Below, one piece after another: positions 4,124-49,632 of a DNA stretch of 64,000 nucleotides (positions within the stretch are counted from its first letter, which is position 1; every line of letters begins with the position of its first letter). The stretch is from NCBI GenBank assembly GCA_024449915.1, contig JAMZAV010000358.1, positions 1,361,501 to 1,425,500 on the forward strand. The letters run 5' to 3'. The translations under genes were made by a program, and so were the position numbers. Under the pieces are notes generated by a model. The model searched no databases, was not told where the DNA came from, and saw nothing but the letters and a program-made list of their open reading frames with translations. The stretch comes from Sweltsa coloradensis. Its lineage: Eukaryota > Arthropoda > Insecta > Plecoptera > Chloroperlidae.

Positions 4124-4194
4124 ATGACGATCACCTACTCGTCCCAAGTAGCCACGGTCACCGGACTTGGGTGTTTCTGGCACCTGCTGTTCAG
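4124..4194 (+). CDS. BEST: Bestrophin chloride channel, exon 1 (start codon)
   Basis: First coding exon of a bestrophin, a pentameric calcium-activated chloride channel of the plasma or organelle membrane. The ATG at 4124 begins MTITYSSQVA, matching the conserved bestrophin start, which lies on the cytosolic side. The exon encodes 23 codons plus two bases and ends at CAG before GTGGGT. Phase with exon 2 is exact (AG plus G gives Arg). The coding exons I can trace total about 455 residues with the usual order: N-terminus, pore neck, TM helices, calcium clasp, variable tail. Vertebrate paralogues BEST1-4 cannot be told apart here; a single pro-orthologue is likely. Confidence 0.9.
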
Positions 4195-4295: not shown

Positions 4296-4409
4296 GTGGA
4301 AGGGAAGTATTTACAAGCTGCTCTATCCAAACCTGTTTGTCTACTCTCTGTGCTACCTGACCATTAGTGTAATATACAGATATCTGCTGAAAGATACGCA
4401 GTGGAAGAA
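4296..4409 (+). CDS. BEST: Bestrophin exon 2 (first transmembrane segment)
   Basis: The exon follows the 3' splice site ctctccag and ends before GTAAGT at 4410. It reads R-WKGSIYKLLYPNLFVYSL and continues through a hydrophobic stretch to KDTQWKK. The family has WRGSIYK at this place, followed by TM1. Length is 114 nt. Cumulative coding length is 185 nt, leaving two bases that join exon 3 in frame. Confidence 0.9.
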
Positions 4410-5089: not shown

Positions 5090-5261
5090 AGACTTCGAAG
5101 GGATCGCTACCTACTGTAAGCAGAACCAGTCCGAGATCCCCATAGCCTTCATCCTGGGGTTCTACGTTCAGGTGGTGGTCAGTAGGTGGTGGGAGCAGTA
5201 CACTAAGATCCCCTGGCCGGACCGTCTGGCCGTGTTCGTCAGCACCCTGGTCACCGGACAG
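5090..5261 (+). CDS. BEST: Bestrophin exon 3 (pore neck); source of the 171-bp array
   Basis: The exon starts after tcctacag and ends at GGACAG before GTAATAC. It encodes DFEGIATYCKQ, then NQSEIPIAFILGFY, VVVSRWWEQY and PWPDRL, and ends VTGQ. This is the bestrophin signature region: the I-x3-F-x3-F pattern in IPIAFILGFY matches the three hydrophobic residues lining the pore neck of the family. The exon closes in phase 0 (357 coding nt so far). The part from the codon for N (5124) to the end is the segment amplified in the following 15 kb. This copy is the only one with the upstream 34 bp of exon and a good 3' splice site, so it is the functional exon. Confidence 0.93.
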
Positions 5262-8200
5262 GTAATACAGGCTACATTGTTTACCGGTCGTTGGAGTCGT
5301 CGCTTGTCGTTGATAACCAATCCGAGGATCCCCATAGCCTCATTGTTTTCTGGGGGGTTCTACGCTTCAGGTTGGTGGTCAGTAGTAGTGGGGGAGCAGA
5401 AGCACGTTAAGTAAGTAAGACAGCAAAAGCTAAAGCAGTTATAGTGGGGGAGCAGTACACTAAGATCCCATGGCAGGACCGTACCTGGCCGTGTGTTCGT
5501 CAGCACACTGGTCACCCGGACAGTGTAATACAGGCTACATTGTTACCGGTCGTGATAAACCAATCCGAGATCCCCATAGCCTTCATCTGGGGTCTACGTT
5601 CAGGTGGTGCGTCAGTAGGTGGGTGGGGAAAGCAGAGAGCAGTTACACTAAGATCCCCTGGCCGGAATCGTCCTGGCCGTGTCGTCATAGCACCCTGGTC
5701 ACCTGACAGGTTAATACAGGGCTACATTGTACGTCTTTGATAACCAATCCGAGATCCCCATAGCCTTCATCCTGGGGTTTACGTTTCAGGTGTGGGTGGT
5801 CAGTAGGGTGGTGGGCAGCAGTACACTAAGAGCCCCTGGGCCGGACCGTTACTGGCCGTCTAGTTCGTCAGGGCACCCTGGTCACCGGACAGGTAATACA
5901 GGCCACATTGTTACCGGTCGTTGATAACCAGTCCGAGATCCCCATAGCCTTCATCCTGGGGTTCTACGTTCAGGTGGTGGTCACGTAGGTGTGTGGAGCA
6001 GCAGTAACCTAAGCATCCCCTGGCCGGACCGTATGGCCGTGTTCGTCAGCAACCATGGTCACGGACAGGTATACAGGCACATTGTTACCGGTCGTTGTAA
6101 CCAGTACCGAGATCCCCATAGCCTTCAATCCCTGGGGGTTACTACGTTTCAGGTGGTGGTCAGTAGGTGGTGGTGGGAGGCCCCAAGGTAAGTACACTAA
6201 GATCCCCTGGCCGGACCGTCCGGCCGTGGTTCGTCAGCCCTGTCACCGGAAAGGTTAATAAAAAACCCAGGCCCCACAAACATTGTACCGGTCGTTGGAT
6301 AAAACCAGTCCCCGGAAGATCCCATAGCCTTCATCCTGGGTTTCTACGTTCAGGGTGGTAGGTCAGTAGGTGGTGCGAGCAAGTACAACTAAGAATCACC
6401 CTGGACGGACCGTCTGGCCGTGTTCGTCAAGCACCCCGGGTCCACCGGCAGGTTAATACCAGGCTACATTGTTAACGGTCGTGATAACCAGCCCGAGATC
6501 CCCATAGCCTTCATCCTGGGTTCTACGTTCAGGTGGTGGTCAGTAGGTGGTGGAGCCGTAACACTAAGATCCTGGCCGGGACCGTTGGCGTGTTTCGTCA
6601 GCACCCTGGTCACCGGACAAGGTAATAAAAGGCAACAGTGTTACCGGTCGTTGATAAACCACAGTCCCGAAATCCCCAATAGCCTTAATCCTGGGTTCTA
6701 CTTCAGGTGGTGGTTCAGTAGGTGGTGGGGCAGTACACAAGATCCCCTGGCCGGACCGTCTGGCCGTGTTCCGTCAGGCACCCTGGTCACCGGACAGGTA
6801 ATACAGGCCACATTGTTACCGGCGGTGATAACCAGTCGAGAATACCCCATAGCCTTCATCCTGGGTCTACGTTCAGGTGGGGCAGTAGGTGGTGGGAGCA
6901 GTACACTAAGACTCCCCTGGCCGGACCGTCTGGCCGTGTTCGTCAGCACCCTGGTCACCGGAACAGGTAATACAGGCACATTGTACCGGCGTTGATAACC
7001 AGTCCGAGATTCCCCTAGCCTTCATCCTGGTTTTCTACGTTTCAGGTGGTGGTCAGTAGGGGTAGGGAGCAGTCCAAGATCCCCTGGCCGGACCCGTCCT
7101 GGCCGTGTTCGCAGCACCCGGTCACCGGACAGAACTAAATACAGGCCAATTGTTACCGGTCGTTGATAACCCAGTCCGAGATCTCCCATAGCTTCATCCT
7201 GGTTTCTACGTTCAGGTGGTGGTCAGTAGGTGGTGGAGCAGCAGTACACTAAGATCCCCTGCCGCGACCAGTCTGGCATGTCGTCAGACCCTGGTCACCG
7301 GGACAGGAATACAGGCAACATTTGTTACCGGTCGTTTGTAACCCAATCCCGAGATCCCCATAGCCTTCATCCTGGGATCTACGTTCAGGTGGTGGTCAAG
7401 GTAGGTGGTGGGAGCAGTACACTAAGATCCCCTGGCCGGACCGGCTGGCCGTGTTCGTCAGCACCTGGTCACCGGACAGGTAAATACAGGCCACATTGTT
7501 ACCGGTCGTGATAAACCAGTTCCGAGATCCCCATAGCCTTCATCTGGGGTTTACACGTCAGGTGGTGGTCAGTAGTTGGTGGTTGAGCCCGGAGCGTACA
7601 CTAAAGATCCCCTGGCCGGACCGTCTGGCCGTGTTCGTCAGCACCCTGCGTCACCGGAAGGTAATACAGGCCACATTGTACCGGTCGTTGGATAACAGTT
7701 CCGAGATCCCCATAGCCTTCCATTCCTGGGGTTCTACGGTTCAGGTAGGTGGTCAGTAGGTGGTGGGAGCAGTACAATAAGATCCCCGCCGGACAGTCTG
7801 GCCGTGTTCGTCAGCACCCTGGTCCACCGGAAAGGTAATACAGGTTCACATGTACCGGTCGTTTGATAACCAAGTCCAGTCCCCATAGCCTTCATCCTGG
7901 GTTCTACGTTTCAGGTGGTGGTCAGTAGGTGGGTGGGAGCAGTACCTAAGAGCCCGGCCGGAACCGTCTGGCCGTGTTCGTCAGCACCCTGGTCACCAGG
8001 ACAGTAATACAGTCCACATGTACCGGTCGTTGATTAACCAGTCCCGAGATCCCCATAGCCTTCATCCCTGGGTTTCTACGTTCAGGTGGTGGTCATTAGG
8101 TGGTGGGAAGCAGTACACAAAGATCCCCTGGCCGGACCGTACTAGCCGTGTTCGTCCAGCACCCCGGCCACCGAGACAGGAAAACAGGCCACATTGTTAC

Positions 8201-11200
8201 CGGTCGTTGATAACCAGTCCGAGAATCCCATAGCTTTAATCCTGGGGTTCTACGTTCAGGTGGTGGTCAGTTAGGGTGGTGGTGAGCAGTACACTAAGAT
8301 CCCCTGGCCGGACCGTCTGGCCGTGTTCGTCAGCACCCTGGTCACCGGACAGGTAATACAGGCCACATTGTTACCGGTCGTTGATAACCAGTCCGAGATC
8401 CCCATAGCCTTCATCCTGGGTTCTACGTTCAGGTGGTGGTCAGTAGGTGGTGGGAGCAGTACACTAAGATCCCCTGGCCGGACCGGTATGGCCGTTGTTT
8501 TAGTCAGCACCCGTCACCGGGTACAGGTAATACAGGCCACATTGTTCAACGGCTCGTTGATACCAATCCGAGAATCCCATAGCTTCATCTTGGGGTTCTA
8601 CGTTCAGGTGGTGGTCAGCTAGGTGGTGGGAAGCAGTTACACTAAGATCCCCTGGCCGGACCGTCTGGCCGTGTTCGTCAGCACCCTGGTCACCGGACAG
8701 GTAATACAGTCCACATTGTTACCGGTCGTTGATAACCAGTCCGAGATCCCCATAGCCTTCATCCTGGGGTTCTACGTTCAGGTGTGAGGTGGTCAGTAGG
8801 TGGTGGGGCAGTTACACTAAGGATCCACCTGGCAGGGACCGTCTAGGCCGGTCGCAGCACCCTGGTCACCGGACAGGTAATACAGGCCAAACCTGTTTAC
8901 CGGCGTTGATAACAATCCGAGATCCCCATAGCCTTCATCCTGGGGTCTACGTTCAGGGTGGTGGTCAGTAGTAGGTGGTGGGAGCCAGTACACTAAGATC
9001 CCCTGGCCTGACCGTCTGGCCGTGTTGTCCAGCACCCTGGTCACCGAGGACAGGTAAATCACAGGCCACATGTTACGGTTCCGTTGATAACCAGGGGTCC
9101 GAGATCCCCATAGCCTTCATACGGGTTCTACGTTCAGGTGCGTCGGTCAGTAGGTGGTGGGAGCAGTACACTAAGATCCATGGCCAGGACCGTCTGGCGT
9201 CGTTCGGCAGCACCCTGGTCACCGGACAGGTAATACAGGCCACATTGTACGGTCGTGATAACCAGTCCGAGATCCCCAAGCTTTCATCCTGGGGGTTTAC
9301 GTTTTCAGGGTGGTGGTCAGTAGGGTGGTGGGAGGCAGTACACTAAGACCCCTGGCCGGACCGTGCTGGCCGTGTTCGTCAGCACCCTTGGTCACCGGAC
9401 AGGTAATACAGGCCACATGTGACGGCGTTGATAACCAGTCCGAGATCCCCATGCCTTCATCCTGGGGTTCTACGTTCAGGTGGTTGTCAGTAGGTTGGTG
9501 GGAAGAAGAGTACACTAAGAATCCCCTGGCCGGACCCGTCTGGCCGTGTTCGTCAGCACCCTGGTCACCGGACAGGTAATACAGGGCCACATTGTTACCG
9601 GTCGTTGATAAACAGTCCGAGATCCCCATAGACTTCATCCTGGGTTATACGTTCAGGTGGTGGTCAGTAGGTGGTGGGAGCAGGACACTAAGACCCCCTG
9701 GCCGGACCGTCCTGGCCGTGTTCGGTCAGCACCCTGGCCACGGACAGGTAATAAAGGCCACATGGTGTACCCCGGTCGTTGATAACCAGCCGAGATTCCC
9801 CCATAGCCTTCACTGGGTTCTACGTTCAGGTGGTGGTCAGTAGGTGGTGGGACAGTACACTTACGATCCCTGGCCGGACCGTCTGGCCGTGTTTCGTCAG
9901 ACACCAATGGTCACCGGACAGGTAATACAGGCCACATGTTACCGGTCGTTTGATAACCAGTGCTGAGATCCCCATAGCCTTCATCCTGGGGTTCTACGTT
10001 CAGGTTGTGGTCAGTAGGTGGTGGGAAGCAGTACACTAAAGATCCCCCTGGCCGGACCGTCGGGCCGTGTTCGTCAGCACCCCCTCCCTTTGGTCACCGG
10101 ACAGGTAATACAAGGCACGTTGTAGGTACGTTGATAACCAGTACCGAGATCCCCATAGGCGTTCATCCTGGGGTTTACGTTCAGGTGGTGGTCAGTAGGT
10201 AGGTGGGAGCAGTAAGCAGTACACTAAGATCCCCTGGGCCGGACCGTCTGGCCGTGTTTAGTCAGCACCTGGTCACCGGAACAGGTAATAAGCCCACATT
10301 GTTACCGGTCCGTGAAAACCAGTCCGAGACCCATAAGCCTTCATCTGGTTCTACGTTCAGGTGGGGGTCAGTATTGGGGGGTTTGGGAAAAGCAGTACAC
10401 TAAGATCCCATCGACCGCCGGACCGTTGGCGTGTTCGTCAGCACCCTGGTAACCGGCAGGTAATCCAGGCCACATTGTTACGGTCGTTGATAACCAGTCC
10501 GAGATCCCCATATCCTTCTCCTGAGCGTTTTATACGTTCAGGTGGTGGTCAGTAGGTGGTGGGAGCAGTACACTAAGATCCCCTGCCAGACCGTATCTGC
10601 CGTGTCGTCAAGGCACCCTGGTCACCGGACAGGTAATACAGGCCACCATGTTACCGGTCGTTGATAAACCAGTCCGGATCCCCATAGACTCATCCTGGGG
10701 TTCTACGTTCAAGGTGGTGGTCAGTAGGTGGTGGGAGCAGTTACACTAAGATCCCTGGCCGGGACCGTCTGGCCGTGTTCGTCAGCACCTGGTCACCGGA
10801 CAGGTAATACAGGCTCATTGTACCGGTTCGTTGATAACCAGTCCGAGATCCCCATAGCTTCCTCCTGGGTTATACGTTCAGGTGGTGGTCAGTAGGTGGT
10901 GGGAGCAGTTACACTAAGATTCCCCTGGCCGGACCGTCTGGCCGTGTTCGTCAGCAACCTGGCCACCGGACAGGTAAATACAGTAACATTGTTACCGGTC
11001 GTTGATAAACCAGCCGAGATCCCCATAGCATTCATCTGGGGTTCTACGTTTCAGGTGGTGCGTCAGAGGTGGTGGGAGCAGTGTTACACTAAGATCTCCC
11101 TGGCCGGACCGTCTGGGGCGTGTTCGTCAGCACCCTGGTCACCGGACAGGTAATACAGTCCACATTGTTACCGGTCGTTGATAACCAGTCCGAGATCCCC

Positions 11201-14200
11201 ATAGCCTTCATCCTGGGTTCTACGTCTCAGTGGTGGGTCAGTAGGTGGGTGGGGAGCAGTAACATAAGATCCCCTGGCCGGACCGTCTGGCCGTGGTTCG
11301 TCAGCACCCTGGTCACCGGGACAGGGTAATAAGCCCACATTGGTTACCGGTCGTGGATAACCAGTCCGAGATCCCCCATAGGCCTTCATCCTGGGTTTCT
11401 ACGTTCAGGTGGTGGTTCAGTAGGTCGGTGGGAGCAGTACACTTAAGCTCCCCTGGCCGGACCGTCGGCCGTGTTTCGTCAGCACCCTGGTCACCGGAAG
11501 GTAATACAGGCCACATTTTACCGGTCGTTGATAACCAGTCGATATCCCCATAGCCTTCATCCTGGGGTTCCTACGTTCAGGTGGGGTCAGTATAGGTGGT
11601 GGGAGCAGTCACTAAGATCCCCTGGCCGGACGTCTGGCCGTGTTCGTCAGCACACTGGTCACGAGACAGGTTAATACAGGCTACATTGTTACCGGCCGTG
11701 ATAACCAGTCCGAGATCCCCATTAGCTTCATCCTGGAGTTCTACGTTCAGGTGGGTCAGTAGGTCGGTTGGGAGCAAGTACACTACGATCCCTGGCCTGA
11801 CCGTTCTGGCCGTGTTCGTCAGCACCCTGGTCACCGGACAGGTAATTACAGCCCACATGTTACCGGTCGTGCATAACAGTCCGAGATCCCATAGCCTTCA
11901 TTGCCTGGGGTCTACGTTCAGGTGGTTTGGTCAGTAGGTGGTGGGAAAGCAGTCACTAAGAATCCCCTGGCCGGCCGTCTGGCCGTCGTTCGTCAGCACC
12001 CCTGGTGTCACCGGACAGGTAATACAGGCCACATTGTTACGGTCGTTGATAAACCAATCCGCACAGATCCCCTAGCCTTCATATTGGGGTTCTACGTTTA
12101 AGTGGTGGTCAGTAGGTGGTGGGAGCAGACACCTAAAAGATCCCCTGGCCGGACCGTCTGGCCGTGTTCTAGCACCCTGGTCACCGGACAGGTAATACAG
12201 GCCACATTGTTAACGGTCGTTGAAACCAGTTCCGACGATCCCATAGCGTTAATCCTCGGGTTCTACGTCCAGGTGGTGGTCAGTAGGTGGTGGGAGCAAG
12301 TACACTAAGATCCCCTGGCCGGACCGTCTGGCCGTCGTCGTCAGACCCTGGTCACCCTGGACAGGTATACAGGCCACATTGTTTACCGGTCGTTGATAAC
12401 CAGTCGAGACTCCCATTAGCTTTCATCCTGGGGTTCTACGTTCAGGTGGTGGTCAGTAGGGGGGTCGGGGAGCAGTACACTAAGATCCCCTGGCCGGACC
12501 GTTCTGGCCGTGTTCAGTCAAGCACCCTGGCACGGACAGGTAATACAGGCCACATCGTTACCGGTCGTTGATAAACCAGCCGAGATCCCAATAGCCTTCA
12601 TCCTGGGGTTCTACGTTCAGGTGTGTGCGTCAGTAGGTGGTGGAGCAGTACACTAAGATCCCTGGCCGACCCGTTTCTGGGCCGTGTTCGTCAGCACCCT
12701 GGTCACCGGACAGGTAAGACAGGCCCACATTGTTACCGGTCGTTGATAACAAGTCCGATGATCCCATAGCCTTCATCCTGGGTTCTACGTTCAGGTGGTG
12801 GTCAGTAGGTGTTGGGGAGCAGTACACTAAGGATCCCCTGGCCGGGACCTCTGGCCGTGTTCGTCAGCACCTGGCACGGACAGGTAATCAGGCCACATTG
12901 GTACCGGTCGTTGATAACAGTCCGAGATCCCCATAGCCTTCATTCCTGGGGTTCGACGTTCAGGTGGTGGTCAGCAGGTAGGGGAGAAGTTACACTAAGA
13001 TCCCCTGGCCGGACCGTCTGGCCCGTGTCGTCCAGCACCCTGGTCACCGGACAGGTAAACAGGCCACATGTTACGGTCGTTGATAACCAGTCCGAGATCC
13101 CCATAGCCTGCATCCTGGGGGTTCTACGTTTCGGTGGTAGTCAGTAGGTGGTGGGAGCAAGTACACTAAGATCCCCTGGCCGGACCGTCTGGGCCGTGTT
13201 CGTCAAGCACCCTGGCACCGGACATGGTAATACAAGGCTACCATTGTTACGGTCTGATAACCAGTCCGAGATCCCCATAGCCTTCATCCTGGGTTCTAAC
13301 GTTCAGTGTGTGGTTCAGTAGGTGGGGGAGCAGTAAAGCAGTCCCTAAGATCCCTGGCCGGACCGTCTGGCCCGTTTCGTCAGCACCTGGTCACCGGACA
13401 GTAATACAGGCCACATGTTACCGGTCGTTGATAAACCAGTCCGAGATCCCCATAGCCTTCATTCCTTTTTTCCCTGAACTTTTTTTCCTTCTTTCTGTTT
13501 TCCCTTGGTTCACTTTTCCTCTTTCGTGGTTGCCTTCTCTCCTTTGGGGTTCTACGTTCAGGTGGTGGTCAGTAGGTGGTAGGGCGAGCAGTACACTAAG
13601 AGTCCCCTGGCCGGGACCGTTCTGCCTGTTCGTCAGCAACCTGGTCACCGGACAGGTAATACAGGCCAACATTGTTACCGGTCGTTGATAACCAGTCCGA
13701 GATCCCCATAGCCTTCATCCTGGGGTTCTACGTTCAGGTGGTGGTCAGTAGGTGGTGGGAGAGTACACTAAAGATCCCCTGGCGACCGTCTGGCCGTGGT
13801 TCCGTCAGGCAACCCTGGTCACCGGACAGGTTAATACAGGCCCCATTGTTACGGTAGTTGATAAACCAGTCGAGATCCCCATAGCCTCAATCTGGGGTTC
13901 TACGTTCAGGTGGTGGTCAGTAGGTGGTGGGAGCAGTACACTAAGATCCCCTGGCCGGACCGTCTGGCCGTGTTCGTCAGCACCCTGGTCACCGGACAGG
14001 TAATACAGTCCACATTGTTACCGGTCGTTGATAACCAGTCCGAGATCCCCATAGCCTTCATCCTGGGTTCTACGTTCAGGTGGTGGTCAGTAGGTGGTGG
14101 GAGCACAGTACACTAAGATCCCCTGGCTCGGACCGTTCTGGCCGTGTTTCGTCAGCACACTGGTCGCCGGAAGGTAATACAGGCCACCATTGATTACGGT

Positions 14201-17200
14201 CGTTGCTAACCAGTCCGAGATCCCCATTAGCCTCATCCTGGGGTTCTACGTTATGGGTGGTGGTAGTAGGTGGTGGGAAGCAGCAGTACACTAAGATCCC
14301 TGGACGGACCGTCTGGCCGTGTTCGTCAGCACCCTGGTCACCGGACAGGTAATACAGCCCCACATGTTACCGAGTCGTTGATAACCAGTCCGAGATTCCC
14401 CATAGCCTGCATCATGGGTTCACGTTCAGGTGGTGGTTCAGTAGGTGGTGGGAGCAGTACATAAGATCCCCTGCGCCGGAACCGTCTGGCCGTGTTCGTC
14501 AGCACCCTGGTACCGGACAGGTAATACAGGCACATTGTTACAGGTCGTTGATAACCAGTCGAGAATCCCCATAGCCTTCATCCTTGGGGTTATACGTTCA
14601 GGTGTGTGGTCAGTAGGTGGTCGGGAGCAGTACACTAAGATCTCTGGCCGGACGTCGGGCCAGTGTTCGTCAGCCCCCTGGTCACCGACAGGTTAATTAC
14701 AGGCCACATGGTGTACCGGTCGTTGATAAACCAGTCCGAGATCCCCATAGCCTTCATCCTTGGGGTTTTCTACGTTCAGGTGGGGTCAGTAGGTTGGGGG
14801 AGCAGTACACTAAGACCCCTGGCCGGGACCGTCTGGCCGTGTTCGTCAGCAACCCTGGTCACCGGACAGGTAATACAGGCCACATTGTTACCGGTCCGTT
14901 GATAACCCAGTCCGAGATCCCCATAAGCTTCATCATGGGTACTACGTTTCAGGTGGTCGGTCAGTAAGGTGGTGGGAGCAGTACACTAAGATCCCATGGC
15001 CGGACCGTCTGGGGCCGGTGTTTCGTCAGCACCCTGGTCACCGGACAGGTATACAGCTACATTGTACCGGTGTGATAAACAGTCCGAGATCCCCATAGCC
15101 TCATCTGGGGTTCTACTTCAGGTGGTGGTCAGTAGGGTGGTGGGAGCAGTACATAAGATCCACTGGCCGGACCGTCTGGGCCGTGTTCGTCAGCACCCTG
15201 AGTCACTCGGAAAGGTAATACAGGCCACATTGTTACGGTCGTTGATAACCAGGGTCGAAGATCCCCATAGCCTTCATCCTGGTTCTACGTTCAGGTTTGG
15301 TGGGTCAGTAAGGTGGTGGGAGCAGTACACTAAGATTCCCCTGGCTCGCGACCGTCTGGAGTGTTCGTCAGCACCATGGTCACCGGACAGGTAATAAAGG
15401 CCACATGGTTACCGGTCGTTGATAACCAGTCCGAGATCCCCATAGACTCCATCCTGGGGTTCTACGTTAAGGTGGGGCGCAGTAGGTGGTGGGAGCAGTA
15501 CACTAGATCCCCTGGCCGGACCGTATGGCCGTGTTCGGCAGCACATGTCACGGACAGGTAATACAGGCACATGTTACCGGTCGTTGTACACCAGTCCGAG
15601 ATCCCCATACCTTTTTCATCATGGGGTTCTACGTTCAGGTGGTGGTCAGTAGGTGGTGGGAGCAGTACACTAAGATCCCCTGGCCGGACCGTCTGGCCGT
15701 GTTCGTCAGCACCCTGGTCACCGGACAGGTAATACAGGCTACATTGTTACCGGTCGTTGATAACCAGTCCGAGATCCCCATAGCCTTCATCCTGGGTTCT
15801 ACGTCAGGTGTGTGGGCAGTAGGTGGTCCCCCACGGGAGCAGTCACTAGATCCCAGATCCCCTGGCCGGACCGTCTGGCCGTGTTCGTCAGCACCCTGGT
15901 CACCGGACAGGTAATACAGGCCACATTGTTACCGGTCGTTGATAACCAGTCCGAGATCCCCATAGCCTTCATCCTGGGGTTCTACGTTCAGGTGGTGGTC
16001 AGTAGGTGGTGGCGCAGTTAGTACACTAAGATTTCCCTGGCCGGACCGCTGGCCGTTGTTCTTAAGAACCTGGTCACCGGGGACAGTAATTACAGGCACA
16101 ATTTGTTACGGTCGTTGATAACCAGCCGAGATCCCCATAGCCTTCACCTGGGTTCTACGTTCAGGTGGTGGTCAGGGTGGTGGGAGCAAAAGTACACTAA
16201 GATCCATGGGACGGCCGTGTTCGTCAGCACCCTGGTCACCGGACAGGTAATAAAGGCTACATTGTACCGGGTTCGTTGGTAACCCATTCGAGATCCCCCT
16301 GCCTTCATCCTGGGGTTCTACGTTCAGGTGGTGGTCAGTAGGGGGGTGGGAGGCAGTACACTAGATCCCCTGGCCGGACGTCTGGCCGTTGTTCGTCAGC
16401 ACCCTGTTCACCGCCCGACAGGTAATACAGGCCACATTGTTACCGGTCGTTGATAAAAAAACCCCCAAAAAATTTCCCCCCCGAAGATCCCCATAGCCTT
16501 CATCTGGCCGGTTCTACGTTCAGGTGGTGGTCAGTAGGTGGTGGAGCAGCAAGTTACACTAAGATCCCTGGCCGGACCCGTCTGGCCGTGTTCGTCAGCA
16601 CCCTGGTCACCGACAGGTAATAGCAGGCCAAATTGTTAACGGTCGTTGATACCAGTCCGAGATCCCCATAGCCTTTCATCATGGGTTCTACGTTCAGGGT
16701 GGTGGTCATGTAGTGGTGGTGGGATGCAGTTACACTAAGATCCCCTGGCGGACCGTTGTTCTGGCCGCGTTCGTCCAGCACCCTGGTCACGGACAGGTAA
16801 TACAGTCCACATTGTTACCGGTCGTTGATAACCAGTCCGAGATCCCCATAGCCTTCATCCTGGGGTTTCTACGTTTCAGGTGCGTGGTCAGAGGTGGGGG
16901 AGCAGGTACACTAAGATCCCCTGGTCCGGACCGTTGGCCGGTTCTTTTTTTGTTTTTTTTTTGTTCTGTCAAGACCCTGGTCACGGACAGGTAAAACGGC
17001 CCCATTGTTACCGGTCGTTGATAACCAGTCCGAGATACCCATAGCCTTCATCCGGGTTATCCGTTCAGGTGGTGGTCAGTAGGTGGTGGCTGAAAGCTAG
17101 TCCAACTAAGATCCCCTGGCCGGACCGTCTCGGCCGTGTTCGTCAGCACCTGGTCACGGACAGGTTAATACAATGCCACATGTGTACCGGTCGTTGATAA

Positions 17201-20200
17201 CCAGTCCGAGTACCCAAGCCTCATCCTGGGGTTCTACGTTCAGGTGATGGTCAGTAGGTGGTGGGAGCAGTCACTAAGATCCCTGGCCGGACCGTCTACG
17301 GCCGTGTCGTCAGCAACCTGGTCCATCAGGACAGGTTAATACAGGCAACATTGTTACCGGTCGTTGATAAAAACCAGGCCCGAGATCCCCATAGCCTCAT
17401 CCTGGGTTCTACGTTCAGGTGGTGGTCAGTAGGTGGTGGGAAGCAGACATATAGATCCCCTGGCCGGACCGTCTGGCCGGGTTTCGTCAGCACCTGGTCA
17501 CGGACAGGTAATACAGGCCACATTGTTACCGGTCGTTGATAAAACCAGTCCGCGATCCCCAGAGCCTTTTCCCCATCCTGGGGTTCTACGTTCAGGTGGT
17601 GGTCAGTAGGTGGTTGGGAAAGCAGTACACTAAGATCCCTGGCCGGACCGTGGGCCGTTTCGTCAGCACCTGGTCACCGACAGGTTATACAGGCTACATT
17701 GTTACCGGTCGTTTGATAACCAGTCGAGATCCCCCCATAGCCTTCATCCTGGGTTCTAGCTTCAGGTGGTGGTCAGTAGGTGGTGGGAGCCAGTACACTA
17801 GATCACCTGGCGCCGGACCGTCTCGGCTGTGTTGCGTCAGCACCCTGGTCACCGCGACAGGTAATACAGGCCACATCGTTACCGGTCGTTTGCATAAACC
17901 AGTCCGAGATCCCCATAGGCTTCATCGGGTTCTACGTTCAGGTGCGTGGTCAGTAGGTGGTGGGAGCAAGACACTAAGATCCCTGGACGGACCGTCTGGC
18001 GTTGTTCGTCAGCACCCGGGTCACCGCGGACAGGTAATACAGGCCACATGTTAACGGTCGTGATAAACCAGTCCGAGAATCCCCATAGCCTTTCATACTG
18101 GGTTCTACGTCAGGGGTGGTCAGTAGGTGGTGGGGAAGCAGTACACTAAGATCCTACGGCCGCGACCGTCTCTGGCGTGTTCGTCAGCACCCCTGGTCAC
18201 CGAGACAGGTAATACAGTCCACATTGTTACCGGTCGTTGATAACCCAGTCCGAGATCCCATAGCTCTCCTGGGGTTTCTACGTTCGTTAGGTGGGTGGTC
18301 AGTAGGTGGTGGAGACAGTACATAAGATCCCCTGGAGGACCGTTGGCCGTGTTCGTCAGCACATGGTCACCGGAAAGGTAATACAGGCCCATTTGTTACG
18401 GTCGTTGATAACCAGTCCGAGATCCCCATAGCCTTATCTTGGTTCTAAGTTCAGGTGGTGAGTCAGTAGGTGGGGGGAGGAAGTACACTAAGATCCCTGG
18501 CAAGGAACCGTATGTTGGGCGTGTTTCTCAGTCAGCACCCTGGTCACCTGCGAAGGTTAATACAGGCCACAATTGTTACCGGTCGTTGATAAACCAGTCC
18601 GAGATCCCCATAGCTCCTTCATCCTGGGGTCTCTAAGTTCAGGTGGTGGTCAGTAGGTGGTGGGAGCATACACAAGATCCCCTGGCCGGACGTCTGGCCG
18701 TGTTCGTCAGCACCCTGGTCACCGGACAGGAATACAGCCACATTGTTATCCGGTGCGTTGATAACCAGTCCGAAATCCCCTAGCCTTCATCCTGTAGGGT
18801 TTCTACGTTCAGGTGGTGGTCAGTAGGTGGTGGGAGCAGTACACTAAGATCCCCTCCCTGGCCGGACCTTCTGGCCGTGTCGTCAGCACCTGGTCACCGC
18901 TCGGACAGGTAATTACAGCCCACATTTGTTACGGTCGTGGATAACCAGTCCGAGATCCCCATAGCCTTCATCCTGGAGTTCTACGTTCAGGTGGGGTCAG
19001 TAGGTGGTGGGAGCAGTACACTAAGATCCCCTGGCCGGACCGTCTGCCGTGTTCGTCAAGCCCCCTTGTCACCGGACATGGTAATCAGGCAGTACATTGA
19101 CTTACGGTCGTTGATAACCAGGTCCAGATCCCCATAGCCTTCATCCTGGGGGTTCTACGTCAGGTTGGTGGTCAGTATGTGGTGGGAAGCAAGTACACTA
19201 AGATCCCCTGGCCGGACCGTCTGGCCGGGTTTCGTCAGCACCCTGGTCAACCGCGCCACCGGTTAACAGGCCTACATGGGACCCGGTCGTTGATAACCAG
19301 TCCGAGATCCCAATAGCTTCATCCTGGGGTTCTACGTTCAGGGGTGGTGGTCAGTAGGTGGTGGGCGCAGAGTACACTAAAGATCCCCTGGCCCGGACCG
19401 TACTGGCCGTGTTCGTCAGCACCCTGGTCACCGGACAGGTAATACAGGCCACATTGTTACCGGTCGTTGATAACCAGTCCGAGATCCCATAGCCATTCCA
19501 GCCTGGGGTTCTACGTTCAGGGGTGCGTCAGTAGGTGAGTGGGAGCGAGTACACTAAGATCCCCGGCGGACCGTTTGGCCGTGTTCGTCAGCACCTCTGG
19601 TAACGGACAGGTAATTACAGGCCACATTGTTACCGGTCGTTGATAACCAGTCCGAGATCCCCATAGCCTTCATCCTGGGGTTCTACGTTCAGGTGGTGGT
19701 CAGTAGGTGGTGGGAGCAGTACACTAAGATCCCCTGGCCGGACCGTCTGGCCGTGTTCGTCAGCACCCTGGTCACCGGACAGGTAATACAGGCCACATTG
19801 TTACCGGTCGTTGATAACCAGTCCGAGATCCCCATAGACCACAGCACCCCCATGGCGGTTCTACGCTCACGGTGGTCGGGTCAGTAGGTGGTGGGAAGCA
19901 GGTACCACTAAGATCCCCTGGGCCGGACCGTCCTGCCCGTGTTCCGTCAGCACCCTGGTCAACCGGACAAGGTACTACAGGTACATTGTTACCGGTCGTT
20001 GATAACCAGTCCTAGATCCCCATAGCCTTCCTCCTGGGGTTCTACTGTTCAGTTCGGTGGTCAGTAGGTGGTGGGTGAAGAGCAGTACACTAAGATTCCC
20101 CTGGCCGGACCGTCTGGCCTTGTTCGTCAGCAACCCTGGTCACCGGACAGGTAATACAGGCCACATGTTACGTCGTTGGATAACTAGTCCGAGATCCCAA

Positions 20201-20706
20201 TAGACTTCATCATGGGGTTCTACGTTCAGGTGGTGGCAGTAGGTGGTGGGAGAGCAGTACACTAAAGATCCCCTCGGTTCGGACCGTTCTGGCCGTGTTC
20301 GTCAGCACCCTGGTCACCGGACAGGTAATACAGGCCACATTGTTACCGGTCGTTGATAACCAGTCCGAGATCCCCATAGCCTTCATCCTGGGGTTCTACG
20401 TTCAGGTGCGGTGGTCAGTAGGTGGTGGGAGCAGTAACTAAAGATCCCCTGGCCGGGAATTATGGCCGTGTTACGTCAGCACCCTGGTCACCGCGACAGG
20501 TAATACAGGCCACATTGTTACCGGTCGTTGATATAACTAGTCCCGAGATCCCCATAGCCTTCATACTGGGTTCGACGTTCAGAGTGGGTGGTCAGTGGTG
20601 GTGGGAGCAGTACACTAAGAATCCCTGGCCGCGACCGTCTGGCAGTGTTCGTCAGCACCCTGGTCACCGGACAGGTAATACAGGCCACATTGTTACCGGT
20701 CGTTGA
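5262..20706 (+). repeat. Bestrophin exon-3-derived 171-bp tandem array (about 90 units)
   Basis: The array fills intron 3. The consensus unit is exactly 171 bp, measured between identical points at 19642 and 19813. It contains 138 bp of exon 3 (AACCAGTCCGAG through GGACAG), the 5' splice site GTAATAC and 33 bp of intron ending GTCGTTGAT. No unit carries the real 3' splice site or the first 34 bp of exon 3. The consensus is 57 sense codons with no stop, so the intron part would read VIQATLLPVVD. Spacer variants GGCTACATT, GGCCACATT and GTCCACATT recur. A few copies are clean (about 8290-8460, 13900-14060, 15630-15780, 15860-16010, 19640-19830). Most carry several single-base indels, and some carry homopolymer junk (16452-16485, 16940-16965), which looks like uncorrected long-read sequence. 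Copy number is an estimate from span divided by unit. Confidence 0.95.
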
Positions 20707-21150
20707 GTGCCATGATCTGCCAGGCTAGAACAGCTGCTAGATACCCCAATTGATGTTTAGCAAGCAACCACGTCGTACCGTCAAACAAGCTACATAATAT
20801 CAACGACGTAAGAGGTATAACCTTTTAGGTATATTATAATAGGTTGACCCAGCCAGAAGTAGGAAACGGCGATGGATGATGATGATGAATGATAATAGAT
20901 TAGATATGAGGTCTCGAAGGAGATTTGCCCTCTTCAGGTGTCTAACTACGTATTTTTGGAGGTGTTGTGTAAGGAGTGTCCAGGGGCTGTTTAAGAGAAC
21001 TCATCAATTGCATTCGTATTATAACGACAGAAGAAACCCCTGGACTTAAGTCAGGATTTCCGGGGTCAGGTATCGACCTCGGGACCTTTGGATTCAGAGT
21101 CCAGTGCTCTTTCGGTGAACCTTGGACATTGGGCATTACCTTCACAACTT
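20707..21150 (-). mobile_element. SINE relic and (GAT)n tail after the array
   Basis: A tRNA-like head on the minus strand (GAGCACTGGACTCTGAATCC and GGTCGATACC, about 21040-21125) is followed by a body shared with 2967-3003. Nearby, 20850-20890 (GACCCAGCCAGAAGTAGG then gatgatgatgat) is the inverted counterpart of 24800-24845 and looks like the 3' tail of another retroelement. No host exon is present before 21207. Confidence 0.4.
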
Positions 21151-21206
21151 AGCCCTCTAGGAAGAAGTTAGACACAATATGATTTGAAGGTTCGTTGTTC
21201 CCTCAG

Positions 21207-21386
21207 GACGACCGAGGACGTCTGATGCGACGCACGATCATGCGCTATGCCAACCTGGGTCACGTGATTGTCCTGCGCATGATGAGCCCCGGCATCAAGA
21301 AGCGCTTCCCCACCTACACCCACCTGGTGGAGGCTGGCTTCATGCAGCCCAACGAGAAGAAGATCTTTGAAGACCTGGACATGAAG
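21207..21386 (+). CDS. BEST: Bestrophin exon 4
   Basis: The exon begins after ttccctcag and ends at ATGAAG before GTCGGT. Its 180 nt encode 60 residues in phase 0: DDRGRLMRRTIMRYANLG, then KRFPTYTHLVEAGFM and EDLDMK. RGRL-RR-RYANL and the KRFPT-HLV-AGFM motif are conserved in animal bestrophins and form the cytosolic helical region after the neck. The donor GTCGGT is weaker than the others in this gene. The intron that follows holds a retroelement tail, simple repeats and the 71-bp acceptor array. Confidence 0.92.
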
Positions 21387-21655: not shown

Positions 21656-21736
21656 GAGATCTAAAGCTCCTGCTTACAATGCACAAGGTTTGAGCATTTC
21701 GCATGTGGGTACTATATGTACTGTATTCTCTTTTAG

Positions 21737-22313
21737 TACTTCCACCCCAAGTACTGGATGCCTCTGGTCTGGCATATGGGTACTGTATGTTCTGTATTCT
21801 CTTCCAGTACTTCCACCCAAAGTACTGGATGTTCTGTATTCTCTTCCTCTGGCATATGGGTACTGTATGTTCTGTATTCTCTTCCAGTACTTCCACCCAA
21901 AGTACTGGATGCCTCTGGTCTGGCATATGGGTACTGTATGTTCTGTATTCTCTTCCAGTACTTCCACCCCAAGTACTGGATGCCTCTGGTCTGGCATATG
22001 GGTACTGTATGTTCTGTATTCTCTTCCAGTGCTTCCACCCCAAGTACTGGATGCCTCTGGTCTGGCATATGGGTACTGTATGTTCTGTATTCTCTTCCAG
22101 TACCTCCACCCCAAGTACTGGATGCCTCTGGTCTGGCATATGGGTACTGTATGTTCTGTATTCTCTTCCAGTACTTCCACCCCAAGTACTGGATGCCTCT
22201 GGTCTGGCATATGGGTACTGTATGTTCTGTATTCTCTTCCAGTACTTCCACCCCAAGTACTGGATGCCTCTGGTCTGGCATATGGGTACTGTATGTACTG
22301 TATTCTCTTCCAG
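21737..22313 (+). repeat. 71-bp array duplicating the 3' splice site of bestrophin exon 5
   Basis: Eight tandem copies precede the true exon 5. Exon-like starts (TACTTCCACCCCAAGTAC) are at 21737, 21808, 21888, 21959, 22030, 22101, 22172 and 22243, with the real one at 22314. Spacing is 71 bp except for one 80-bp unit with a short internal rearrangement (21808-21887). Each unit has 36 nt of exon (YFHPKYWMPLVW), then about 35 nt ending tctcttccag, a complete pyrimidine tract and AG. Identity between copies is very high. The unit contains no stop codon in any of the six frames, which is why long open frames appear on both strands; none of those on the minus strand is likely to be a gene. Confidence 0.95.
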
Positions 22314-22502
22314 TACTTCCACCCCAAGTACTGGATGCCTCTGGTCTGGGCCGGCAGCATCATCACGCGGGCGAGGAAGGAAGGCAGAGTCAAGGATGAC
22401 TTCTCTCTTAAGACGCTGATCGACGCCCTCAACGACTTCCGAGGCGGCTTGCTACAGATACTGCACTATGACTGGATCTGCATACCGCTCGTCTACACAC
22501 AG
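22314..22502 (+). CDS. BEST: Bestrophin exon 5
   Basis: The exon is taken to start at the last of nine equivalent 3' splice sites (tctcttccag, 22304-22313) and ends at ACACAG before GTAATAG. Its 189 nt encode 63 residues in phase 0: YFHPKYWMPLVWAGSI, a Lys/Arg-rich link, LIDALNDFRGG and HYDWICIPLVYTQ. The family has YDWISIPLVYTQ here, at the lower pore aperture and start of the next membrane helix. Use of the acceptors at 22101 or 21888 would also keep frame (213 and 426 nt longer); the other acceptors would shift it. Confidence 0.92.
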
Positions 22503-22982: not shown

Positions 22983-23096
22983 GTTGTGACTCTAGCTGTC
23001 TACTTCTATTTCGCCTCCTCTCTGATGGGCAACCAGTTCTTGGACACCGACGTAGATGAGTTGGACATATATGTCCCAGTGTACACCTTACTACAG
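22983..23096 (+). CDS. BEST: Bestrophin exon 6
   Basis: The exon follows gttgttacag and ends at CTACAG before GTAGGC. Its 38 codons are in phase 0: VVTLAVYFYFASSLMGNQF, then LDIYVPVYTLLQ. It matches the bestrophin VVTVAVY-FF-LVGRQF helix and the ELD-VVPVFTFLQ segment. Confidence 0.92.
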
Positions 23097-23412: not shown

Positions 23413-23901
23413 ACGCTTGCACTTGCAGCGGTTAGTTTGATAGAGACGGCCACATACAAGTTGCTACAACCAATATAAAGATCATAAAGTATTTTAATAA
23501 TTCACCTGCAAAATGTTATTATTTCGAAGTGGGAAAGTTAAAAATCAATCAAATACACAAACAAATCGCGACAACGCTTATTATGTTTGTTTTTCGTTTA
23601 CTTTATATCGTATGATAATTTGTACACAGTGTATCTTGGGTTGGGGTATCAGCTCCGGCTCGTCAGCTACAAGAGGGAGGGAGCTCCGGGGATGAAATGA
23701 CAGGTCCGTCTCCAAGGACCACCCGGCACCTCCACCATTGGGCTGGATTTTTGTACATATTTATAATTGGTACAACAGTCATTGCTGCGTTTCGCTGAGA
23801 AAATACTTACAATACAGAATGTAATATATAGCCTAATGTGTAAATGGAATGCAATATCGAACTTTAATGACTTAAGAATGTACGTACCACTTTGTTTTCA
23901 G

Positions 23902-24009
23902 TTTTTCTTCTACATGGGTTGGCTGAAAGTGGCCGAAACTCTGGTCAATCCGTTTGGAGAAGATGACGACGACTTTGAACTGAATTTCCTTGTCGACCGA
24001 AACATCCAG
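23902..24009 (+). CDS. BEST: Bestrophin exon 7 (calcium clasp), GC donor
   Basis: The exon follows tttgttttcag. Its 36 codons are in phase 0: [18 protein letters not shown], then [10 protein letters not shown] and VDRNIQ. The acidic cluster EDDDDFE is the bestrophin calcium clasp. The exon ends AACATCCAG followed by GCAAGT, so the next intron has a GC donor, the main non-canonical class, within an otherwise perfect donor context. The matching acceptor is ttcaag before exon 8. Confidence 0.93.
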
Positions 24010-24210
24010 GCAAGTCTAACGTCACCGCCATTGATACTAATAGTAGTATACCCCGACAGATTAGGAGCCAACGGAACAAATACATTCAAGCATAATTCTC
24101 GGGGTTTCGCTACATTTCTACGCTCATCCAGTAGGCAGGTGCTGGAAATAATAAAACATAGGCATGTAATAGATTTAAAAAATACAATTCAGAAGTTAAA
24201 AAAATCCATC

Positions 24211-24278
24211 CGGATCGGGGTTCGAACCCGAGTCTCCCTCATTCCAGGTAGACACCTCAACTAGACCACCGAGACGGT
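24211..24278 (-). repeat. tRNA-like sequence, probable SINE head
   Basis: On the minus strand TGGTCTAGTTGAGG resembles an A box and GGGTTCGAACCCC is a good B box with a paired T arm. The anticodon arm is not convincing and the 3' end runs into unrelated sequence without CCA, so a SINE head or tRNA pseudogene is more likely than a working tRNA. Confidence 0.5.
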
Positions 24279-26551: not shown

Positions 26552-27301
26552 TTGTGCGATGACAGCATGACAATCGAATTCATTCAGGTGTATGCGCCTC
26601 AAACAGGAAGACCAGTGGTTGAGAAGGATGAGTTTGTGGCAAAATTAGAAGCAATTATGACATCAAATACTATTGTAGTAATGGGGGATTTTAATGCAAG
26701 AATAGGAAAAGATAGAAAAGGATTTGAAGAGGTTATGGGCAGACATGGGATAGATGCAAGAAACAGAGATGGAGAGAAATTGTTAGAAATGTGTGCCAGA
26801 AACTCGTTAGTTATAGGAAATAGTTGGTTCAAGAAACGTAGAACCCAAAAAATAACGAGATATGGCTATGGTGAAGACAGATCAGAGACAGTAATTGACT
26901 ATCTATGTATAGGAAAAGAAGTAATGAGAAATCTTGAGGATGTGAGGGTAATGCCATCAATATCATTGGATGGAGACCACAGGATGGTGTTGGGGAAGTT
27001 TAGAATGATGGTACAGACCCAAAAGAGAATAAAGAACCGGCACAAAAGACTAAAAGTGTGGAAACTGCAATCTCCGATAGTGCAAGAAGAGTTTATGACA
27101 AGAATTAGTGACCAAACACCTACAAATGAAGTGGGAGAAATAGAAGAAGAATGGCAAAACTTTAAGAAGGTTTTTGTGTCAAGTGCAGAAGAGCTGTGTG
27201 GAAGAGTCAGTGGAAGGAGGAAAGAGAAAGAAACGCGATGGTGGAACGAGAGGGTACGAGATGCAGTTCGGGAGAAGAAAACTAGCTTGGAAAAAGAATG
27301 A
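26552..27301 (+). pseudogene. Retrotransposon AP-endonuclease domain, C-terminal half
   Basis: Reads FIQVYAPQTG, VVMGDFNARIG, ITRYGYG, VIDYLCI and LDGDHRMV. GDFNA and the final D-H pair are catalytic motifs of the APE-type endonuclease (DHRMV in place of the common SDHR). The N-terminal metal-binding motifs are absent, so the copy is 5'-truncated. The frame ends at TGA 27299-27301, overlapping the next open frame by ATGA. Comparison with the neighbouring frames (KLAWKKNEKCKSTENEYEYR in a third frame, then VKQIVKEEKDKAMEEF) indicates two frameshifts rather than a designed overlap. Confidence 0.75.
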
Positions 27302-29208
27302 AAAGTGCAAATCCACAGAAAATGAGTACGAATACCGTAGGCGAAAAAACCGATGTGAAACAAATTGTGAAGGAGGAGAAAGACAAAGCAATGGAAGAAT
27401 TTGCTGGTAAATTAGAAGATGACTTCCAGGGAAATAAGAAAATTATGTACGGACTAGTAAAGACAAAAAGACAAGAAAGGGAAGAACAAAAGCTCATGGT
27501 AAATGAAAATGGCCAAGTTACAAACAACCCACAGGAAATACAAGAAATGTGGAGGAAATATTTCAAAGATCTGCTAAATGTACATGGTAGTGAAAATTTA
27601 AATGCAGAGAAAGAGAAAGAGGCAAGTGGAGAAGATGAAGAAGACGAGGTAACAGAACAAGAGGTGGCTCGGGCGTTAGGAGCCATGAAGAATGGTAGAG
27701 CTCCGGGAGTGGATGACATTTCTGTGGAAATGATCAAAGCATCAGGTGCGGAAGGAAGAAGATGGTTATTTCGAGTAATAAGTGCTGCGTGGAAACAAAA
27801 GAAGGTACCGGAAGATTGGAAAAGAGGTATAATTGTACCGCTGTTTAAGAAAGGTGATCGTAAGAAATGTGAAAATTATAGAGGGGTGACATTAATGTGT
27901 CAGTGTGCAAAAATTTATGAGAAAGTTATAGAACTAAGACTGAAGGAGGTATATGACACAGATCTAAGAGAAGAACAATATGGGTTCAGAAGTGGACGGT
28001 CTACTATTGATCCCATATTTGCTATAAGACAGACAATGGAGGGAAGATGGCAAAATGGGAAAGAAATGCACATTGTGTTTTTGGATCTGGAGAAGGCATA
28101 CGATCGCCTGCCTAGAGAGAAAGTATGGGAGTGTCTAGAGATAAAAGGAGTGGGAAGAGGTTTAATAGACAGGATACAAAGTACATATCAAAGGAGTGAA
28201 AGTTGTGTACAGACAGATATGGGTAGGTCAGAATGGTTTCAAGTGAATGAGGGCTTGCGACAAGGTAGTGTGTTATCTCCAACACTCTTTACTGTTGTAA
28301 TGGATGAAATTATAAGAAGAGTGGAACCAAATACAGATGGAAGGGACACAAGAACATTAGTGTTTGCGGACGATGTGTTGATTTGGGGTGAGAGTGCCAG
28401 AGAAGTGCAGGAGAAGGTGGACAGATGGAACGAAGTTACTACAGAGTTTGGTCTAAAAATCAATCAGAAAAAGAGTGAATGTTTGCGTATGCAAAAGAAG
28501 ACAAAGGGCAGGCCTAGAGACATGGAAAATATTGTACTACGGGGAGAAGTCTTAGAAGAAAAAGAAGAATTTAAATATTTGGGAAGTATATTGACAAAAG
28601 ATGCAAAAGTGTGTAGGGAAGTGTCATCTAGAGTGCAAAAAGCAGAAGGGTTTTACCAATTGGTGAGAAAGTTACTATGGAATGAGTTGTTCCCACAAAA
28701 ATGTAAAATTTTGCTGTATAAGGCATATTTTGTACCTATACTAACATATGGGGCAGTAACATGGGCAGTGGGAACAAAAGAAGAGAGTCAGCTGGAAGCA
28801 GCAGAAATGAAGTTTTTAAGAAGTATAAAGGGAGTTACAAAGATGGACAAGATAAGAAGTAATGAAATAAGGAAAGAACTGGGATTGGAGAGATTGAATT
28901 TTAAGCTAGGAAGAGAACGTCTAAGATGGTTTGGACATATGAAAAGGATGGGCAGGGAGAGGATTCCAAGACGAGAATTTGAAGCGGCAGAGGAGGGGAA
29001 AAGAAGAGTAGGAAGGCCAAGAGAAAAATGGGAAAGATTAATTCAAGAAGACGTTGGAAAACGGAATGAAGTGTGGGAGCATGTGGCAAGAGTGAAGCTG
29101 TGGGAGGACAGAAGAGAGTGGAGTAAATTGGTGGAGAGGAAGGAGTTGGATGATGTGGAAGAAACACTAAGTCTGGCAAGCTTAGTATCTACAGTTTCAT
29201 GCCCTTGA
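27298..29208 (+). CDS. Retrotransposon reverse transcriptase
   Basis: A 636-residue open frame with the ordered RT blocks: NGRAPGVDDIS, NYRGVTLM, EEQYGFRSGRST, HIVFLDLEKAYD, EGLRQGSVLSPTLF, the catalytic FADD (28363-28374), LKINQKKSE and FKYLGSIL, then a thumb region (YGAVTWAV) and the C-terminal GRPREKW motif. All RT active-site aspartates (LDLEKAYD and FADD) are intact, so the domain may be recently inserted or active in trans, although the upstream endonuclease is truncated. Confidence 0.9.
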   Translation: MKSANPQKMSTNTVGEKTDVKQIVKEEKDKAMEEFAGKLEDDFQGNKKIMYGLVKTKRQEREEQKLMVNENGQVTNNPQEIQEMWRKYFKDLLNVHGSENLNAEKEKEASGEDEEDEVTEQEVARALGAMKNGRAPGVDDISVEMIKASGAEGRRWLFRVISAAWKQKKVPEDWKRGIIVPLFKKGDRKKCENYRGVTLMCQCAKIYEKVIELRLKEVYDTDLREEQYGFRSGRSTIDPIFAIRQTMEGRWQNGKEMHIVFLDLEKAYDRLPREKVWECLEIKGVGRGLIDRIQSTYQRSESCVQTDMGRSEWFQVNEGLRQGSVLSPTLFTVVMDEIIRRVEPNTDGRDTRTLVFADDVLIWGESAREVQEKVDRWNEVTTEFGLKINQKKSECLRMQKKTKGRPRDMENIVLRGEVLEEKEEFKYLGSILTKDAKVCREVSSRVQKAEGFYQLVRKLLWNELFPQKCKILLYKAYFVPILTYGAVTWAVGTKEESQLEAAEMKFLRSIKGVTKMDKIRSNEIRKELGLERLNFKLGRERLRWFGHMKRMGRERIPRREFEAAEEGKRRVGRPREKWERLIQEDVGKRNEVWEHVARVKLWEDRREWSKLVERKELDDVEETLSLASLVSTVSCP

Positions 29209-42526: not shown

Positions 42527-42873
42527 CAGAGGGGGGTCCTACTCTTAATTATGCTTTCTGCCGCTGTTACAAAAAACCTATTGAAGCTATTTGCAACTTC
42601 GGTTGGTTCTGAAATAACCTTGTTTTCTAGGCTAAGGTGGATCGACGTAGGCTTTGCTTTATTGCCGTGAAGTTCACCGTTTACTATCTTCCAGACTGCG
42701 GCACTCTTGTTAGCTGCTGTGTTTATTTTCTTATTGCAGTGGAGTGATTTTGTTAGTTCAATAATAGTTTTATACTTTTTCTTTATCTCCCTGTAAAGTA
42801 TTTCCTTGTCTGGAGTTCTCCAAATCGTCCAATCTTCATATGCCTTCCGACATCTTTTACCCCATTCTTTCAC
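42409..42873 (-). pseudogene. Retrotransposon linker between EN and RT
   Basis: Continuous with the endonuclease in function but in another frame: KEWGKRCRKAYEDW, YREIKKKYKTII, KSAAVWKIVNGELHG and FNRFFVTAAE. These resemble the EN-RT linker of Jockey-group proteins. It is frameshifted relative to both sides. Confidence 0.7.
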
Positions 42874-42911
42874 TTCTGCAGTAACCCAGGTCTTTGTGTT
42901 ATCCTGGTGCT

Positions 42912-48760: not shown

Positions 48761-49632
48761 CGCTACTACCTACGTATGTACTATGTTGCTCATTAGTTTG
48801 ACATTTGTTTTGTTTGTGTGCTTAGTGTAGTTCCGATGTTGCTACGTTGTTTGCTCTTTGAGGTAGCACAGTTTGACGTTTGTTTTGTTTGCATAGCCTA
48901 GTGTAGATCCGATGTTGCTACGTTGTTTTGTGATGTAGCACAGTTTGACATTTGTGTGACTGATTTCTGATTACCGTAATTTAGATCTGATTTTGTCACG
49001 TGTTTGAGAGTTAGTGTTTTTGACAACGGTTTTTGAATGTGGACACTATTATGTACAGTGCTTGAAAATTGAATCTTATTCATACAATGTTGGGCCTAAT
49101 AGGCCTATGTGTGCAATAGAGATATTCCTTAGCAAAAACTAAACACATTTAGCCTGCATATCATTCATTCTTCATCATCACGGGCGCAGGCCTATCACCT
49201 TAGACTTCACATCAAGACGTGGTAAGTGCAAACGTTTCCTTTTTATCCACTTCCTTGGGCACGATACATCCGTGTCTAAATGACCAGTAACATTTTACCA
49301 AATACCCTTCTAACTTCTCTCATATCATTCACAACATTTGACCAACCTTTGAGTGGTTGGTCGAAGTCTTAAGTAACACTACATTGATACACGTTTGTAG
49401 GTCATACACAGTTTTAATTTTAACGTCTACAACTTTTCCACAATAAATATAATATAATTAGTAGGCCTAGGTACTTAAATAAAAATATTTCATAAATAAT
49501 TATAGGTAAATAATCACATTTTTTCTATTTAGAATTAGGTGCCAAACTTAAAACATAAACTGAAAACAATCTATAGTTCTATATTTGAACTATTTTTACC
49601 AGTACTAACCTGCATTGATGTGGTTTTTCCAG

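Follow-up and report, generated by a model that had tools for sequence, protein, structure and literature searches.

The window, by which is meant the whole 64,000-nucleotide stretch of the Sweltsa coloradensis genome that was analysed, carries a bestrophin gene, probably that of a chloride channel, on the + strand, with two tandem arrays inside it. The borders of the bestrophin exons were picked from homology together with splice signals, and the features that concern the argument below are as follows.

4124..4194, + strand: coding part of bestrophin exon 1, from the start ATG to a GT donor, placed by bestrophin homology
4296..4409, + strand: bestrophin exon 2, with borders CAG/GTAAGT
5090..5261, + strand: bestrophin exon 3, 172 nt, phase 0 at its end; its final 138 nt form the coding portion of each repeat unit
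5124..20706, + strand: tandem array of 89 units of 171 bp (138 nt of exon 3 plus 33 nt of intron from the 5' splice site), from TRF and wrap-around alignment
approx. 5280..20645, + strand: sequence of raw single-molecule quality, an apparent gap fill, recognized by its error spectrum, with limits set by eye
about 13463..13545, + strand: pyrimidine-rich junk patch within the array, which breaks two units in the alignment
20707..21206, + strand: remainder of intron 3
21207..21386, + strand: bestrophin exon 4
21701..22349, + strand: second tandem array, nine 71-bp copies (one of 80), each of 36 nt of intron plus the first 35 nt of exon 5, from TRF
22314..22502, + strand: bestrophin exon 5 in full, its start being the final 71-bp copy
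22983..23096, + strand: bestrophin exon 6
23902..24009, + strand: bestrophin exon 7, followed by GCAAGT as read; Pfam PF01062 is found on the open reading frame 23767-24264

When joined, these seven exons give 316 codons with no stop; exon 8 starts at 25363. The gene product matches PDB 4rdq, a chicken-type BEST1 entry, over residues 2-356 with an E value of 1.9e-121, as befits a member of the bestrophin family (PF01062). Among the best 120 of 2948 protein matches, none is identical, and the closest is a damselfly bestrophin (Ischnura elegans, 70% identity). Exon 3 encodes the pore-neck motif IPIAFILGFY, which aligns to IPVSFVLGFY in 4rdq, so that the pore-neck peptide named in the initial annotation is indeed part of the amplified exon; the neck positions are presumably I76, F80, and F84 of BEST1. 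Exon 7 has an apparent GC donor, CAG/GCAAGT.

The 171-bp array consists of 89 units, all head to tail and in a single orientation when aligned by wrap-around to the 171-bp unit; this count includes the pair of units that the patch disrupts as well as unit 0, formed by the 3' portion of exon 3 in its full-length copy. In particular, unit positions 1-138 are the final 138 nt of exon 3, and positions 139-171 are intron, which begins with GTAATACAGG and has the donor GTAATA first. Unit length, make-up, and a copy number of roughly 90 are thus as the initial annotation had described them, and exons 3 and 4 of the bestrophin gene flank the array, which places it, as was also claimed, in an intron of its source gene. 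TRF reports the array in two rows (5637-13462 and 13545-20706) with 12% indels and periods of 174-176, plus one of 344. Once the two patch units are set aside, the consensus carries the majority base at 171/171 positions. Unit 0 departs from the consensus by a single mismatch, at intronic position 150, and by 20 inserted bases that lie wholly within the spacer; its 138 exonic nucleotides are therefore identical to the consensus. The border between the repeat and the unrepeated 34 nt of exon 3 is a 21-nt edge, TGTAAGCAGAACCAGTCCGAG, and each unit lacks these first 34 nt together with the acceptor of the exon; it is consequently not a mutually exclusive exon, which would have its own 3' and 5' splice sites. 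What each unit does repeat, in the manner of IFI6 (see below), is the 5' splice site of the host exon, which reads CAG/GTAATA in the consensus; in the sequence as read, 54 of 87 units have CAGGTAA unbroken. Between neighbouring units (unit-junction k-mer GTCGTTGATAACCAGTCCGAG), the intron ending in ...GTCGTTGA passes by eye into the exon at AACCAG... through one extra T, and microhomology is absent.

The interior of the array has an error spectrum of its own. Across the 89 units there are 295 mismatches, 500 deletions, and 865 insertions (1.9%, 3.3%, and 5.7% of 89 x 171 columns), only one of 86 units is free of indels when unit 0 and the two patch units are excluded, and bursts of homopolymer insertion (AAAAA, CCCCC, T7, T9) occur. 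Because of the indels, raw unit lengths spread from 161 to 243 nt, excluding the two patch units (91 and 165 nt). Moreover, the errors are asymmetric between strands. In the same 86 units, C>A changes outnumber G>T changes by 96 to 36 (2.3% vs 0.8% of columns, p 3e-8), as they do in each of six blocks of the array, and C and T are lost (3.9% and 3.7%) more than twice as often as G and A (1.7% and 1.4%). An imbalance of this sort suggests that the errors come from a single read, or from a few reads in the same orientation, and not from mutation fixed in double-stranded DNA. Clean sequence stops at ~5280 and restarts at ~20645, by eye within the first and last units, while the flanks, the seven bestrophin exons, and the nearby 71-bp array read clean. 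Raw long reads are described in the PBJelly paper (PMC3504050) as having an error rate of ~15% that is skewed to insertions. It appears that the short-read assembly broke in the repeat and that long-read sequence was placed in the gap without correction, which would be why the copies look ~10% different; the differences between copies look like sequencing error for the most part and not like biological divergence.

A few real variants persist beneath this noise. Substitutions were tested in 87 units (the two patch units dropped) against a null set for each substitution type, with 513 tests in all. C150T, found in 12/87 units (p 7e-14), stands far above the substitution-specific error null, as does G6A in 7/87 (p 4e-9), and only these two are relied on. 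Three further candidates, 148 G>C (5/87 units, p 3e-8) and 148 G>T and 36 G>T (6/87 each, p 4e-5, which for 148 G>T is marginal after 513 tests), were rejected, as they adjoin short runs, where a deletion beside an insertion mimics a substitution. The spacer variants GGCTAC (150 C>T, 12/87) and GTCCAC (148 G>T, 6/87), to which the initial annotation drew attention, are thus present in the letters; the local homogenisation and higher-order units that it read from them found no support at the present error level. In particular, mismatch sharing between units does not depend on distance at lags of 1-30 (z -1.3 to 1.4), a comparison of limited power since most mismatches are read error, and a dimeric structure, hinted at by the 344-bp TRF row, was rejected for the same want of a lag effect. 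The sole local structure found lies in the first three junctions, all of which carry C150T and G6A together (exact p 8e-7 if the two were placed at random, in a test picked post hoc). Over all 85 junctions, the association of the two is weak (p 0.055); along the array, C150T alone does not cluster (p 0.84), and G6A does so weakly (p 0.04). The variant of the first spacer (GGCTAC) carries on into the left end of the raw stretch.

These observations bear on the suggestion that the array is a product of the library or the assembly, that is, a concatemer (e.g., from rolling-circle copying of a small circle) or a noisy read mis-joined into a gap, the true intron being normal or holding a few copies. 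The interior is of uncorrected-read quality, the array length rests on one assembly, and the exon 3 edge occurs at the window locus only. The second unit, unit 1, is irregular: with 74 inserted bases it goes beyond ordinary noise, and the array may be wrongly joined at its left edge; the junk patch could mark a place where reads were merged, and the number of 89 units is therefore approximate. However, a rolled circle would give identical copies, whereas two positions vary far above error, which indicates that the copies are not all the same. Both variants are carried by the first three junctions, which adjoin the left flank with its GGCTAC spacer. Moreover, long-read artefacts due to missed adapters lie on opposite strands, according to the PBJelly paper (PMC3504050), whereas all units here are direct, and the ending of clean sequence within the first and last units is what is expected of a short-read assembly that meets a true repeat. 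An artefact is thus considered unlikely, and a real array is taken to be the better reading of the locus.

The distribution of the repeat was determined by exact-match searches of the 1.449-Gb assembly, which comprises 16,871 contigs (the window lies on contig 358). The unit junction GTCGTTGATAACCARTCCGAG has 23 exact matches, fewer than 89 because of errors, and all 23 fall within the 171-bp array. The 21-nt exon 3 edge has one exact match genome-wide. No haplotig without the array came to light with this one exact pattern, which matched only the window locus. It had been proposed that the repeat is a satellite, and a genome-wide search had been called for; run with the exact junction, that search returned local matches only, and a similarity search with the whole unit, able to pick up diverged copies, gave unscored candidates. 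The array does have the head-to-tail arrangement of many near-identical monomers that is typical of satellites, and its length and its 171-bp monomer would suit a genome-wide or centromeric satellite of which the window locus is one part. However, in assembled DNA, the exact junctions occupy one array on one contig of 16,871 and not many loci or heterochromatin, which makes membership in such a satellite extremely improbable, even though assemblies can lack centromeric satellite. The likeness to the length of alpha satellite has nothing behind it except the number 171. By its exact junction, the array is a local intragenic repeat and not a satellite family.

The 171-bp unit amounts to 57 codons. 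Exon 3 closes in phase 0, and in its frame, the only open one of the six, the consensus is free of stops. Gene models that use donor 2, 3, or 4 have no stops, and stray use of later donors would therefore not truncate the protein. Among shuffled 33-nt spacers, 55% leave the frame open, and one in three lengths is divisible by three; an open frame is thus expected by chance in about 1 of 5 cases and is in itself no evidence of selection. As exon 3 has a single full acceptor, exon definition should favour the first donor, with the remainder removed as a 16-kb intron. It may nevertheless be asked whether the array is expressed, with later donors in regular use to make bestrophins that gain 57 residues with each unit (a further copy of the neck helix plus a linker of 11 residues), or with the whole open frame coding. 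The codon-sized unit, the phase, the stop-free consensus, and the open models for donors 2-4 would all suit such expression; however, chance suffices to explain them, and added membrane segments would probably disrupt the channel fold, so that expression of this kind is very improbable. A related proposal is a frame-preserving ladder of ~88 equal phase-0 splice donors, each adding 57 residues; varying choice among them would yield channels with necks of graded length, or else the ladder would gather many U1 particles on each pre-mRNA, so that copy number would set the output of the gene. Such a ladder, conceivable from the sequence, is regarded as highly doubtful.

The second array of the gene repeats the opposite kind of splice site: the 171-bp array multiplies a donor, whereas the 71-bp array multiplies an acceptor. 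The intronic part of the 71-bp unit ends in TTCCAG, a 3' splice site (TTTTAG in the first copy), and the copies differ by substitutions and by one copy that is 9 nt longer. The junction of this array has eight exact matches genome-wide, all eight at the window locus. Models that start exon 5 at three of the nine acceptors are free of stops, namely the last one and two others, 213 and 426 nt farther upstream. Nine potentially competing exon 5 acceptors, three of them frame-keeping, would thus accompany the proposed donor ladder in the same gene. This second array, the raw-quality interior, and the open frame are additions to what the initial annotation had described.

A search of the assembly with exon 4 gives five matches, namely the gene in the window (100%) and weaker ones on contigs C151, C12548, C527, and C438. 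The exon 4 score on C12548 equals that on C151, and the same exons match at the same identities (L027 vs L024); C12548 is perhaps a haplotig of C151. Stretches of ~9.9 kb from these four contigs contain no array of the 171-bp type and only short tandem repeats of other sequence, the longest units being 156-227 bp in 2.0-2.4 copies, none of them on the exon matches. The paralogue on C151 has exons 3, 4, and 5 apparently fused and intronless (L024 8425-8967). The paralogue on C527 (L025, minus strand) has a tandem pair of exon 3 at 3353-3180 and 3147-2974. The two copies, identical at 53/58 residues and 150/174 nt, are separated by 34 nt (as counted) with GTAAGT and CAG, and an acceptor and a donor accompany each of them. 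An intron of 34 nt is too short for splicing to be expected, and for this reason the pair look like mutually exclusive exons; they are probably alternative pore-neck exons of that kind. Judged by sequence, this genome has two bestrophin genes in which exon 3 was duplicated, each in a different form.

Elsewhere in the window, an AT-rich 429-bp tandem repeat lies at 61828-63615 (4.1 copies, 85% matches in TRF), with divergence that looks mutational by eye. At 26552-29208 and 40884-43964 (-) are two retroelement copies in which endonuclease and reverse transcriptase domains are recognizable; the former has a 636-codon open frame, and its endonuclease match is under the Pfam cut-off. Further open reading frames encode an Integrase_H2C2 domain (57750-58586, -) and an LLPH (LLP homologue) domain (49539-50015, +).

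Several known systems resemble the 171-bp array in part. LPA kringle IV-2 and other coding VNTRs, in which the tandem units carry complete, used exons, are likewise exon-bearing tandem repeats inside a gene; in contrast, the bestrophin unit lacks the acceptor of exon 3. The closest known parallel is the minisatellite of IFI6 (G1P3, 6-16), whose unit is said to be 12 nt. This minisatellite repeats a splice donor, and its downstream units serve as donors, as stated in PMC4526556 (Turri, Cuin and Porter 1995 are cited there and in PMC2572611). The bestrophin array is of the same kind, a tandem repeat at the border of an exon and its 5' splice site, but its unit and extent are far larger: 171 bp, ~88 extra copies, and 15 kb, with 138 nt of a membrane-channel exon in each unit and with downstream donors that are putative. 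De Grassi and Ciccarelli (2009; PMC2812944) describe internal tandem repeats that modify genes of human segmental duplications by minisatellite expansion at exon-intron borders, altering both introns and exons; those units average 30 bp x 4, or 160 bp in total, whereas the bestrophin array is ~100 times longer. The Drosophila Y-loop genes kl-3 and kl-5 have giant introns filled with satellite (PMC6508621) and thus also hold tandem DNA within an intron of a gene that still needs splicing; unlike the bestrophin array, theirs is a simple AATAT-type satellite that extends over megabases and does not derive from an exon of the host gene. Among the papers searched, none combines bestrophin with tandem repeat, exon, and satellite, and the phrases "derived from exon" and "exon-derived" are absent from the titles and abstract openings of the matches listed in a search for exon-derived satellites.

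The array is best explained, and probably so, as a real, young, strictly local, and effectively neutral intragenic tandem expansion in a working bestrophin gene. The exonic consensus is identical to the functional exon 3, and all 89 units share one orientation. Weighed against this explanation are the 74 insertions of unit 1, the junk patch, the linkage of C150T and G6A at only p 0.055 over 85 junctions, and the absence of the array from the bestrophin stretches of all four other contigs with matches. DNA secondary structure was rejected as a cause, as the unit folds no better than its shuffles (z -0.21). A piece of ~170 nt across the border of exon 3 and intron 3 may have been duplicated once, the join being made with one extra T and without visible microhomology, and unequal exchange or replication-based expansion could then have raised the number to roughly 88 extra copies. 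Short reads would have failed to cross this array. The assembly would then have stopped within its outermost units, and the gap between them would have been bridged by uncorrected long reads, one or a few in number and all of one orientation. Most likely, the full-length exon 3 is spliced to exon 4 from one of many identical donors, of which the first is nearest its only full acceptor, and the rest leaves as the 16-kb intron. Stray use of later donors would yield in-frame proteins with repeated neck helices, since each unit adds 57 open codons in phase 0, and this may explain why the array is tolerated.

For studies of repeats in hybrid assemblies, the locus calls for caution, as sequence of raw-read quality in an assembly can mimic repeat diversity. 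If the array is real, it would offer a natural test of two things: how the spliceosome selects one donor when dozens of identical ones all keep the frame, and how quickly a piece of coding DNA can multiply within its own gene.
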